Shown in pieces: positions 32,917 to 37,490 of a stretch of DNA of 64,000 nucleotides. The DNA lies in assembly GCF_022984075.1 (NCBI RefSeq), contig NZ_JALAAD010000001.1, positions 1,592,455-1,656,454 of the forward strand, read 5' to 3'. The position numbers and the translations under genes were made by a program. Origin of the DNA: Synechococcus sp. C9. Lineage in GTDB: Bacteria; Cyanobacteriota; Cyanobacteriia; Gloeomargaritales; Gloeomargaritaceae. Under the pieces are notes generated by a model, which saw nothing but the letters and a program-made list of their open reading frames with translations, ran no database searches and was not told the DNA's origin. Each line of letters starts with the position of its first letter. The stretch's first letter is position 1.

Positions 32917-33102
32917 AATATAGATTTATTTCCACTAACTGCATAGGAGTATTACAGATTGACTTAGCCTGACGGATTGTAAATATTTTGTCATTTCTCT
33001 AGGATTATTCCTAGAATCAAGGTTGTAGCATAGTTCTAGGTATAATTATCCAATCGCCATGTCCCTGATGCCCTTGTTTTGCTCCTGTTTTTGGTGATGT
33101 TC

Positions 33103-33345
33103 ATGACAGAATATGATCAGACCCATGTGTTGCCCTCCGGGGCGGTGAACACCTCTCCCCAACCTATGCAACCAAAAGTGCCTTTTCCGCCGGAAGTGCG
33201 GGAACTAATTGCCAGTTTGAAATTTCATTTCCGCAAAAGTTTAACCGAGATGCCCTTAGAAGTAGCTTTGCTGGCGATGCGGGAGGCTTGGAAGGGATGT
33301 AATGGGGAACAGGATGCCCCTCCACCGCCACCCATGCGTCGTTAA
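33103..33345 (+). CDS. Small hypothetical protein heading a redox operon (80 aa)
   Basis: An 80-residue protein I do not recognise. It has a Pro/Gln-rich head, a compact central part FPPEVRELIASLKFHFRKSLTEMPLEVALLAMREAWKG that should form two or three helices, and a Pro-rich tail APPPPPMRR. There is one Cys (CNGEQ). It ends 3 bases before the FAD oxidoreductase start, so it is very probably translated from the same mRNA. The ATG at 33103 is chosen; ATG 33097 and an upstream start at 33079 would add only hydrophobic residues. A regulatory or assembly partner of the next enzyme is possible but unproven. Confidence 0.6.
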   Translation: MTEYDQTHVLPSGAVNTSPQPMQPKVPFPPEVRELIASLKFHFRKSLTEMPLEVALLAMREAWKGCNGEQDAPPPPPMRR

Positions 33346-33348
33346 ATC

Positions 33349-34737
33349 ATGGCATTAGCATTTACGGACATGACCGCTCTACCAACCCTCGCCGAGGTGG
33401 ATATTTTGGTGGTCGGGGGGGGAACCGCAGGGGCTGTAGCGGGGATTGCGGCGGGGCGCACGGGGTATCGGACGCTGGTGGTGGAGCAGTTGGGGTATGT
33501 GGGGGGAACCCAGACCGGGGCGTTGGTGACACCGATGATGCCCAATCAGGTGGAGGGGGTGCCGCTCAACGGGGGGATTGATGCGGAAATTAACCGGCGC
33601 ATGAATGATTTGTACGAATCAGGGGTCTGGTCGGACGGCAACCGGGGCTGGTTTAACCCGGAGTCCCTGAAGTGGGTGTTGGAGGAAATGCTGTTGGCGA
33701 GTGGGGCACAGCTTTTGTATTACAGTTTTTTTGAGGATGTGATTCTCGCTGAGGGGCAGGTGGTGGGGATTGTGGTTACCAATAAGGCGGGGCGGGTGGC
33801 AATTTTCGCTCAGCGTACCATTGATGCCACCGGGGATGGGGATGTGGCGGTTCGGGCGGGGGTGCCCTTTGCCAGTGGCGACCCGGAGACGGGGGTGAAT
33901 CAGCCGTTTTCGGTGCGGTTTCACCTGGGGAATGTGGATTTACAGCGGTTGGCGGCGTTTTTGCGTTCCCTGGGGCGGTCGGAAATTCTCCCGGAGGCGG
34001 AGGGTTCCCAGGTGCCTTTGCTCCATACGGCGATGGTGTGGGGGCGGGGCTGGACTTTGGAGCCGTTGTTTCAGCAGGCGGTGGCAGAAGGGGTGCTCCT
34101 GCCGGAGGATGGGGAGTATTTCCAGGTGTTTACGATGGCGGGTCGTCCGGGGGAGTTGGCGTTTAATTGCCCTCGCATCAGTGGGCAGGTGGATGGGACG
34201 AATCCCTGGCATTTGACCCAGGCGCAAATTTTGGGGCGGCGGGCGATGCGGCGGTATTTGGCGTTTTGTCGGCGGTATTTGCCGGGGTGTGAAAACGCTT
34301 ATCTGGTGCTGAGTGCGCCCTTGGTGGGGGTGCGGGAGTCCCGGCGGATGGTGGGGGAATACGTGTTGACGGAGGCGGATGTGTTGGGGGCACGGAAGTT
34401 TCCCGATGGCATTGCCCGCAACAATTACCCGATTGATATTCACCGTCCCACCAAGGATCAGCGTCCGGGGTTGACCCGTCTGCCGCCGGGGGAGTACCAC
34501 GAAATTCCCTACCGCTGTCTGGTGCCCCTGGGGGTGGAGCAGTTGTTGGTGGCGGGGCGGTGTCTGTCGGCGACCTTTGCGGCCCAGGGGTCGGTGCGGG
34601 TGCAGTCCAACTGTCGGGCGATGGGGGAAGCGGCGGCGGTGGCGATGGGAATGTCCTTGGATGCTCAAATTCCACCCCGGCAGGTGGATGGGGTGCAGTT
34701 ACGCCAGAAATTGATTGCCCAAGGAGCGTGTTTGTAA
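33349..34737 (+). CDS. FAD-dependent oxidoreductase (FAD_oxidored family)
   Basis: A 462-residue flavoprotein. VDILVVGGGTAGAVAGIAAGRTG (18-40) is the N-terminal Rossmann FAD motif and VVEQLGYVGGTQT follows it. IDATGDGDVAVRAGVPF is the conserved mid-region, GVRESRRMVGEYVLTEADVL is characteristic of the FAD_oxidored family, and LLVAGRCLSATFAAQGSVRVQSNCRAMGEAAAVA is the C-terminal FAD-binding stretch. No signal peptide or Fe-S motif. The substrate is unknown. A ferredoxin gene starts on the base after its stop, strongly suggesting that the ferredoxin is its redox partner. Confidence 0.9.
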   Translation: MALAFTDMTALPTLAEVDILVVGGGTAGAVAGIAAGRTGYRTLVVEQLGYVGGTQTGALVTPMMPNQVEGVPLNGGIDAEINRRMNDLYESGVWSDGNRGWFNPESLKWVLEEMLLASGAQLLYYSFFEDVILAEGQVVGIVVTNKAGRVAIFAQRTIDATGDGDVAVRAGVPFASGDPETGVNQPFSVRFHLGNVDLQRLAAFLRSLGRSEILPEAEGSQVPLLHTAMVWGRGWTLEPLFQQAVAEGVLLPEDGEYFQVFTMAGRPGELAFNCPRISGQVDGTNPWHLTQAQILGRRAMRRYLAFCRRYLPGCENAYLVLSAPLVGVRESRRMVGEYVLTEADVLGARKFPDGIARNNYPIDIHRPTKDQRPGLTRLPPGEYHEIPYRCLVPLGVEQLLVAGRCLSATFAAQGSVRVQSNCRAMGEAAAVAMGMSLDAQIPPRQVDGVQLRQKLIAQGACL

Positions 34738-35106
34738 ATGCCACGTTATTATCAAGTAATTATTCACGACCGGCAAAAAAATGCCATCTATCGGGCGCAG
34801 GTGCCTGGGGATCAGTATTTATTGACGAGTTTAGAAGCCCAGGGGATTGCCCTGCCCTTTGCCTGTCGCAATGGCTGTTGTACCACCTGTGGGGTGCGAG
34901 TGTTACAGGGGGAGGTGTACCAACCGGAGGCATTGGGGATTTCGTCAGCACTGCGGGCGCAGGGGTATGCCCTGACCTGTGTGGGCTATGCCCGGTCGGA
35001 TTTGGAGTTAGTGACCCAGGACGAGGACGAATTATACGAGTTGCAGTTTGGGCAGTATTTTGGCAAAGGGCGGGTGCGGGTGGGGTTGCCTTTGGAAGAG
35101 GAATAG
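34738..35106 (+). CDS. 2Fe-2S plant-type ferredoxin with C-terminal extension
   Basis: A 122-residue ferredoxin. The cluster ligands follow the CxxxxCxxC...C rule: C-RNGC-C-TT-C then LTCVGYA. The first Cys is preceded by Phe-Ala, and the ligand loop has Arg-Asn-Gly where photosynthetic PetF usually has RAG-Ser. The C-terminus is extended by about 20 residues (YELQFGQYFGKGRVRVGLPLEEE) beyond a standard PetF, reminiscent of the FdC2-type ferredoxins of cyanobacteria and plants, which I suggest only tentatively. It abuts the FAD oxidoreductase with no gap, so translation is coupled. Confidence 0.9.
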   Translation: MPRYYQVIIHDRQKNAIYRAQVPGDQYLLTSLEAQGIALPFACRNGCCTTCGVRVLQGEVYQPEALGISSALRAQGYALTCVGYARSDLELVTQDEDELYELQFGQYFGKGRVRVGLPLEEE

Positions 35107-35293: not shown

Positions 35294-35458
35294 TCACATG
35301 GGCACCGTTTCATTCAGCAATTCCAAATGCTCCTGGATGGCTTCCAAGATTAGCACTCGCACTTCATCTTCAGATTCAGCAACGGCTACGCATCCCGGCA
35401 ATTCGGGAACGTATGCACCCCAACTGGTTTCCCCTTGCTCAATCACATAGTCGTACAT
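35294..35458 (-). CDS. HicB family antitoxin-like protein (54 aa)
   Basis: A 54-residue HicB fold: YDYVIEQGETSWGAYVPELPGCVAVAESEDEVRVLILEAIQEHLELL, with the family's AYVPELPGC and E-x-x-I-x-x-H-L-E patterns. It lacks the C-terminal DNA-binding domain present in longer HicB proteins. The ATG at 35458 begins the conserved strand; an upstream start at 35485 adds nine unconserved residues. Fifty bases upstream lie the remains of hicA, so this is the antitoxin half of a decayed type II toxin-antitoxin pair. Confidence 0.85.
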   Translation of the reverse strand: MYDYVIEQGETSWGAYVPELPGCVAVAESEDEVRVLILEAIQEHLELLNETVPM

Positions 35459-35507
35459 GGTGTTAATCCTCTTAGAATGCGACACTTTTTAGGTATTTGC
35501 AATCGTC

Positions 35508-35698
35508 CTATCCCCTTCTAAGACAGGGTTTACAGGTAAAGGCGAATGTCGCAAACTTGTTTGAAATTACTATGATTTTCCCGCCACCATCACCAGTCCT
35601 GCTTTAGTCGGATGTCGGAAGTGCCTATGGCTCCCCTTCGTTCGCACCTGATACCAGCCATCTGCTTCTAAACGCGCGATCACCTCCCTAACTTTCAT
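35508..35698 (-). pseudogene. hicA toxin gene, 3' part frameshifted
   Basis: From the ATG at 35698, 42 codons give MKVREVIARLEADGWYQVRT, then KGSHRHFRHPTKAGLVMVAGKS and a stop at 35570-35572. This is a typical HicA mRNA-interferase N-terminus including the catalytic His (GSHRHF). The normal end of HicA, which resembles GTLxSILxQAGL, is lost; a degraded version (ATFAFTCKPCLRRG) can be read in another frame just downstream, ending at 35508. The lesion and the retained hicB indicate toxin decay. Confidence 0.75.
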
Positions 35699-36113: not shown

Positions 36114-37490
36114 ATGGATACCCCAAGGGTGGAAAATGTGGTGATTATTGGTTCGGGACCGGCGGGTTACACGGCGGCGATCTATGCGGGACGGGCCAAC
36201 CTCAAGCCGGTGGTCTTTACGGGGGTCGAGCGGGGCGGACCGGCGGGGGGGCAGTTGATGACCACGACGGAGGTGGAAAATTTCCCCGGTTTTCCCGAGG
36301 GGTTGACGGGGCCGGAACTGATGGAACGGATGCGGGCGCAGGCGGTGCGCTGGGGAGCGGAGTTGATCCCGGAGGATGTGCTGGCGGTGGATTTGCAACA
36401 GCGACCCTTTGTCCTGCGGTCGGCGGAGCGGGAGGTGCGTGCCCATGCGGTGATTATTGCCACGGGGGCGACGGCGAAACGGTTGCACTTGCCCTCGGAG
36501 GAGAAGTTTTGGAATTTGGGCATTTCCGCCTGTGCGATTTGCGATGGGGCTTCGCCGCTGTTTCGGGGGGTGGATGTGGCGGTGATTGGCGGGGGGGATA
36601 CGGCCTGCGAGGAGGCGGTTTATCTCACCAAGTTTGCCCGCCATGTGCATTTGTTGGTGCGTTCGGAGCGACTGCGGGCGAGTAAAACCATGCAGGAACG
36701 GGTGTTGCGCCACCCCAAAATTACGGTGCATTGGCACACGGAGGCGGTGGATGTGTATGGGAATGGCACCTTGCAGGGGGTGCGGGTGAAAAATAACCAA
36801 ACCCAACAAGAGCAGGATTTGCCGGTGGGGGGCTTGTTTTACGCCATCGGGCACACCCCCAATACGGATTTGTTCCAGGGGCAGTTGGCCTTGGATGCGG
36901 CGGGTTATATTGTCACCGAACCGGGTACGGTGGCGACGAGTGTGCCGGGGGTGTTTGCCTGTGGGGATGTGCAGGACCATGAGTACCGGCAGGCAATTAC
37001 GGCGGCGGGCACGGGCTGTATGGCGGCATTGTTGGCGGAACGGTGGTTGACGGAGCAGGATTTAGCCCAGGAGTTTGCCAGTGCCCCAGCAACCGCAACG
37101 GCTACCCCAGCGGCACCAGCCCCATCGGTTGCCCCGGCATCCCCATTTGACCCGCACCAGCCGATCCAAACCGGCAGTTATGCCCTGCGGAAGCTGTACC
37201 ACGAAACGGACAAACCCCTGTTGGTGATGTACAAGGCTCCCGGTTGTGGTCCCTGCCGTTCGTTGAAACCGATTCTGGAAAAGCTGGCTGGGGAATTGGC
37301 TGACCAGATGTACCTGGTGATCATTGATATTGAAGAGGACCCGGAAATTGCCCAAGCTGCTGGCGTGACTGGGACGCCCACGGTGCAACTGTTCCACCGC
37401 AAGGAACGGCTCCAGGAATGGCGGGGGGTCAAGCCCAAAAGCGAGTACCGGGAGGCAATTCAGCGGTGTCTGTCCGTCACATCGGGGTAA
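36114..37490 (+). CDS. trxB: NADPH-dependent thioredoxin reductase with fused thioredoxin (NTRC)
   Basis: A 458-residue fusion. The N-terminal thioredoxin reductase domain has FAD motif [12 protein letters not shown] (11-22), redox CxxC C140-A-I-C143, NADPH motif [12 protein letters not shown] (157-168) and FACGDVQD. An Ala/Pro-rich linker (about 324-350) leads to a thioredoxin domain with C378-G-P-C381 and a GTPTVQLF cis-Pro motif. This is the NTRC type, which in cyanobacteria and chloroplasts reduces 2-Cys peroxiredoxin and regulates photosynthetic enzymes. All catalytic and NADPH residues are intact. A YbjN-like gene follows after 30 bases. Confidence 0.96.

Follow-up and report, generated by a model that had tools for sequence, protein, structure and literature searches.

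A Flavoprotein Gene of Putative Foreign Origin Set before the Ferredoxin Gene fdC2 in Gloeomargarita

Introduction

The window analyzed here, a stretch of 64,000 nucleotides from Synechococcus sp. C9 (Gloeomargaritaceae), carries three genes in close succession, which encode a protein of 80 residues (P0001), a flavoprotein (P0002) and a [2Fe-2S] ferredoxin (P0003). The Gloeomargarita lineage is frequently cited as closely related to plastids. In functional terms, the locus raises a question: Do the three products form a dedicated ferredoxin-linked redox module with a small partner, as a first-pass annotation of the sequence had proposed, or have genes of different origin come to share one operon?

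The Gene Block and Its Conservation

The three genes and their intergenic gaps of 3 bases (atc) and 0 bases, as given in the first-pass annotation, are borne out by the coordinates of the open reading frames (table 1), and its description of a tight, coupled operon agrees with the order of small gene, FAD gene and fdC2, which is intact in all six readable genomes of the genus Gloeomargarita. In the seventh the contig stops within the FAD gene, with the small gene still adjoining it. Spacing at the junctions of the block varies in these relatives, the extremes being an overlap of 4 bases and a gap of about 9. A scan of the block region found no terminator, which is weak evidence consistent with a single transcript.

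Table 1. Features in and around the three-gene block, with positions in the window
Feature	Position	Strand	Basis
Two consecutive transposase-like ORFs, 117 and 181 aa	31908-32808	+	By eye (IS5-like)
Promoter-like matches 5' of the block	32959..33017	+	Consensus only, weak; 4 in region vs 2.1 expected
First gene: 80-aa protein P0001	33103..33345	+	ORF; 7/7 genus genomes; dN/dS
Second gene: FAD_oxidored (PF12831) flavoprotein P0002, 462 aa	33349..34737	+	ORF, Pfam, AF2, Foldseek
Third gene: FdC2/Fed2-type [2Fe-2S] ferredoxin P0003, 122 aa	34738..35106	+	ORF, Pfam, tree, alignment
HicB-like and short HicA-like frames, just 3' of fdC2	35294-35698	-	By eye
Thioredoxin reductase with C-terminal thioredoxin domain (NTRC-like), 458 aa, 3' of the operon	36114-37490	+	By eye

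The flanks of the block, with genes named by eye, are of three kinds on either side: upstream a LarE-like gene, a methyltransferase gene with a pentapeptide-like one, or groEL; downstream a thioredoxin-reductase-like gene, a gene for about 370 residues, or a transglycosylase-like gene with an allophycocyanin-like one. All rearrangement breakpoints in the six genomes lie outside the block and none within it, which likely reflects selection for co-expression of its genes, a conservation that pertains to the genus Gloeomargarita only. In the sister genus (genome G007) the flavoprotein gene and fdC2 lie on separate contigs, the former followed by a gene of the aminotransferase family. The operon, which is found throughout the genus Gloeomargarita and is absent from its sister genus, is probably a later construction. 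We found no description of it in cyanobacteria in the literature accessible to us.

The genome of the window (G000) has the LarE-like upstream neighbor plus an added transposase. The transposase-like pair lies about 0.3 kb 5' of the operon and is probably a recent insertion, since genome G005, which is 97% similar, lacks it there. On the other side, the HicB-like and HicA-like frames could form a toxin-antitoxin pair, of which the HicA-like member, only 42 residues long, may be truncated; the NTRC-like gene follows on the strand of the operon.

A Ferredoxin of the FdC2 Class

P0003 matches the Pfam family Fer2 (E 5e-15), has the plant-type CxxxxCxxC pattern of 2Fe-2S proteins in its cluster loop CRNGCCTTC and ends in the tail TQDEDELYELQFGQYFGKGRVRVGLPLEEE. 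PDB ferredoxins align only to its residues up to 100-104 of 122, in line with the C-terminal extension of about 20-27 residues beyond PetF-type proteins that characterizes the class. All 59 sampled cyanobacteria have a match, nearly all of them one clear best match of near-full length, with mostly 50-70% identity outside the genus. These FdC2-type sequences share the loop CRNGxCTxC and the tail TQDEDE.YELQFG.YFGKG.., and, counted from the first cysteine ligand, run for about 80 residues up to the C-terminus versus 58-69 in the paralogues. One split of the tree, with moderate support (80/80 and 77/92) and with no named Fed2 sequence among its rows, parts them from the PetF-like paralogues.

By its sequence, P0003 is thus assigned to the FdC2/Fed2 class, which is nearly universal in cyanobacteria. 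With Synechocystis Fed2 and barley VirK it shares its size and the loop CRNGxCTTC, with the class also the long acidic tail (TQDEDE.YELQFG.YFGKG.v..GLPLDED) and the presence of one such orthologue in nearly every sampled cyanobacterium. The acidic tail that the first-pass annotation regarded as extra is the normal tail of FdC2/Fed2 and, being common to the class, does not mark a dedicated ferredoxin.

The loop reads CRNGCCTTCG in all six sequences of the genus Gloeomargarita, CRNGACTTCG in the sister genus and CRNGACTTCA in most others. The GCC triplet appears again in two genomes of another cyanobacterial family (f2; L154, L155), so that an extra cysteine recurs beside a cluster ligand. Plant FdC2 likewise has GCC in its loop.

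FdC2 has been described as conserved across all photosynthetic organisms (PMC10947542). The Synechocystis gene, fed2 (sll1382), lies in "cluster c" beside a suhB-like gene (PMC4284462), and in several other cyanobacteria fdC2 adjoins an inositol-monophosphatase-like (suhB-like) gene, as judged by eye. Unlike these, the Gloeomargarita gene has left the nuc/suhB neighborhood to stand third in an operon.

Origin of the Flavoprotein and Its Probable Partners

The assignment of the middle gene to FAD_oxidored is confirmed by Pfam over the full length of the protein (PF12831, E 5e-112; 375.6 bits against a cut-off of 27; profile positions 1-416 of 416), and its N-terminal dinucleotide-binding motif GGGTAG follows the pattern GGG.AG, which is invariant in the alignment. 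The AF2 model (pLDDT 82) finds its top Foldseek matches among GR2-type flavoproteins, the best being 3oz2, a geranylgeranyl-bacteriochlorophyll-reductase-like structure with TM 0.46 on query length; halogenases and MnmG score similarly, and no solved structure has a TM-score much above 0.5. Sequence matches in the PDB cover mostly the dinucleotide-binding part only. The predicted structure supports only a generic fold of GR2 type, which gives no hint of the substrate. Identification as a geranylgeranyl reductase (ChlP/GGR) was rejected, the score for TIGR02032 being 22.9 bits against a cut-off of 158.8, with likeness in fold only.

The nearest relatives of P0002 are found in the Gloeomargaritales cyanobacterium VI4D9 (97%), Gloeomargarita sp. 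SKYG116 (85%) and Gloeomargaritaceae C42_A2020_066 (80%). Of 291 cyanobacteria, the eight Gloeomargaritales all have a close relative and are alone in this; the other 283 show matches that are weak (E 2e-15 or worse) or no match at all. Outside the order, the closest sequences belong to Ignavibacteria-class/Bacteroidota genomes (63-69% identity along the entire protein), followed by Sericytochromatia (49-55%). In the maximum-likelihood tree the Gloeomargaritales clade (98/95) is nested within Ignavibacteria-class rows, at forks of moderate support (89/88, 90/90), with the Sericytochromatia outside; the simplest reading of this nesting is that the gene was transferred into the Gloeomargaritales stem from bacteria of Bacteroidota/Ignavibacteriota type. 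Six flavoprotein-bearing genomes of Ignavibacteria-class bacteria and Sericytochromatia that were searched for FdC2 gave no match. Hence the separation of ferredoxin and flavoprotein in related genomes, which the first-pass annotation had named as telling against its module, is what we find outside one genus: FdC2 occurs without a close relative of the flavoprotein in the sampled cyanobacteria, the flavoprotein without FdC2 in those six genomes, and the two apart in every other examined lineage that has either one.

The Ignavibacteria-class/Bacteroidota relatives (L070, L071, L176-L181) show the flavoprotein gene in other company. A gene of about 500 codons follows it directly in six of seven Ignavibacteria-class loci and lies 3.5 kb off in the seventh; we call its product a transporter from its hydrophobic, repetitive sequence, which matched no Pfam family or other family model. 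A hydantoinase_A (HyuA) gene then comes after it in all five loci readable that far, with DUF4855-like genes next in some and a ROK repressor gene 5' in some. The Gloeomargaritales too have both partners, each in seven of eight genomes versus 0/283 other cyanobacteria (HyuA at E<=1e-40); the transporter is absent from G004, and HyuA was not found in G006, a genome 83% complete. The genes of the set are contiguous in the other bacteria but scattered in Gloeomargarita, where the FAD gene has fdC2 as its coupled neighbor instead. The transporter counterpart (about 55% over its length) and that of HyuA (47-50%) lie far from the FAD gene: in G000 the FAD gene stands at C1:1.63 Mb, the transporter gene at 2.77 Mb and the HyuA gene at 1.16 Mb.

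From gene order on the donor side and common distribution, the flavoprotein is most likely part of one imported uptake or catabolic pathway with the transporter and HyuA, which are better supported as its partners than those of the proposed module. Their co-occurrence counts as one acquisition event and not as independent evidence, because all three mark a single clade. We found no description of this set in a cyanobacterial order in the papers accessible to us, and a literature search for a link between hydantoinase, FAD and Ignavibacteria returned nothing.

In three Gloeomargarita loci (L192, L194, L199) the imported transporter gene lies directly behind genes for an Mrp-type antiporter and a DUF1350-like gene, identified by eye; this tandem with native genes suggests that imported genes simply settle behind host genes. 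Distant pairs of PF12831 proteins in Ignavibacteria-class loci L182 and L183 are encoded beside NanE, diaminopentanoate-dehydrogenase-like, YegS-like kinase and hydantoinase_A-like genes, apparently a catabolic locus without pathway assignment.

The Small Protein

P0001 is encoded in all seven genomes of the genus and was not found in the sister genus by sequence or profile search. Its core is nearly invariant in the alignment and its pairwise dN/dS is 0.01-0.12, far from the value near 1 that the first-pass annotation had set as refutation, with changes mostly at third codon positions; on these grounds it is read as a real coding gene under strong purifying selection. The same annotation had recognized nothing like it, and Pfam, NCBIfam and PHROGs indeed contain nothing convincing; the search also gave no match to NblA, so that an NblA-like protein was discarded. 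The AF2 model, built on an alignment of four sequences, is of low confidence (pLDDT 61) and too weak to interpret: it places helices at about residues 30-42 and 52-66 and leaves about 28 N-terminal residues and the Pro-rich C-terminus without structure.

Profile searches found relatives mainly in genomes of a cyanobacterial family (f26), in 1-10 copies each and with E down to 1e-10. Invariant LKFH, P and W are common to P0001 and these proteins, which indicates membership of a small cyanobacterial protein family without a name, with the motif SLKFHH...P...A...W..C. Like its other members, P0001 has LKFH...P...A...W..C and falls in the size range of about 60-110 residues; unlike them, it carries in Gloeomargarita an additional PPPPP tail. 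The inspected relatives stand beside other genes, for example that of an era-like GTPase, and none adjoins FAD_oxidored or FdC2 (neighbors by eye), which weakens the idea that the small protein is a partner in the proposed module. In f26 and related genomes (L085-L104) the family reaches 10 copies per genome, matching no Pfam or NCBIfam entry, and one copy repeatedly has genes for the era-like GTPase and an amylase-like protein as neighbors.

Competing Explanations

The whole reading that we favor, and consider fairly probable, is that the flavoenzyme of an imported pathway was later set before the native fdC2, the block being kept by selection on co-expression. P0002 would be a FAD-dependent dehydrogenase or reductase of a small compound, which the transporter would import and the HyuA-type protein would process; this might be a sugar-derived acid or a cyclic amide, as we guess from gene contexts in Bacteroidota. 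Its gene would have entered the Gloeomargaritales stem together with those of the transporter and HyuA and later been put ahead of fdC2, where selection would hold the block, since expression of the enzyme is thereby tied to the supply of FdC2. The small protein would probably be an adaptor or regulator drawn from a separate cyanobacterial family. An exchange of electrons between FdC2 and the flavin of P0002 seems plausible, if rather doubtful. One point against a shared pathway is that the transporter and HyuA genes are unlinked to the flavoprotein gene in Gloeomargarita, so that this part of the reading leans on donor gene order and on co-occurrence in one clade. The lack of the transporter in G004 and the moderate support (89-90) of the forks behind the nesting also weigh against the explanation.

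A less probable account, yet a serious one, is that the genes share a promoter only, the flavoprotein and the small protein having no functional tie to FdC2, and that the order persists as breakage would part the ferredoxin from its promoter; this can hold alongside the pathway part of our preferred explanation. With 0-3 bases or a short overlap in front of it, fdC2 depends either on the promoter of the operon or on one inside it, and Synechocystis requires Fed2 for photoautotrophic growth (PMC4284462). The unlinked state of flavoprotein and FdC2 in all other examined lineages also fits, but the equally strict junction between the small gene and the FAD gene is left unexplained, and the transposase insertion 5' of the small gene in G000 indicates that the locus takes insertions.

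The module of the first-pass annotation, in which FdC2 would receive its electrons from photosystem I or FNR and would pass electrons to the flavoprotein or take them from it with the small protein as adaptor, we regard as unlikely. A conserved tight operon with a real small protein stands from that proposal, and the persistence of gene order through flank rearrangements, the minimal spacing and the strong purifying selection on P0001 speak for it, as do the need of a flavin dehydrogenase for some electron partner and the reduction of FdC2 by photosystem I or by NADPH via FNR (PMC8408499). What falls is the dedicated ferredoxin, since FdC2 is nearly universal and already has a lineage-wide role; moreover, the six flavoprotein genomes give no FdC2 match, the sister genus has both genes apart and no small protein, and the imported transporter likewise stands in tandem with native genes. 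That the flavoprotein acts with FdC2 in chlorophyll synthesis or maturation, for example in a geranylgeranyl-reductase-like step, is highly improbable, for although 3oz2 is its best fold match and barley VirK, the FdC2 orthologue, drives Mg-protoporphyrin monomethyl ester cyclase (PMC8408499), the match is generic, the closest relatives outside the order lie in catabolic-type loci of Ignavibacteria-class bacteria and other cyanobacteria make chlorophyll without this flavoprotein.

Significance

The ferredoxin and the flavoprotein belong to known classes, and the small protein is the only one of the three that does not. It would be a bold and decidedly improbable extension of our preferred reading that FdC2 has been rewired, with a new small adaptor, to serve the imported FAD enzyme of the transporter/HyuA pathway; if true, this would be a photosynthesis-coupled catabolic or salvage route of a kind not described in cyanobacteria. 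The co-occurrence of flavoenzyme, transporter and HyuA in Gloeomargaritales and Ignavibacteria-class bacteria points to a pathway without assignment, whose genes are now named together. FdC2 has proved essential wherever this was tested, its partners are still debated, and a lineage-specific operon partner kept through rearrangement is a concrete candidate for one of them.
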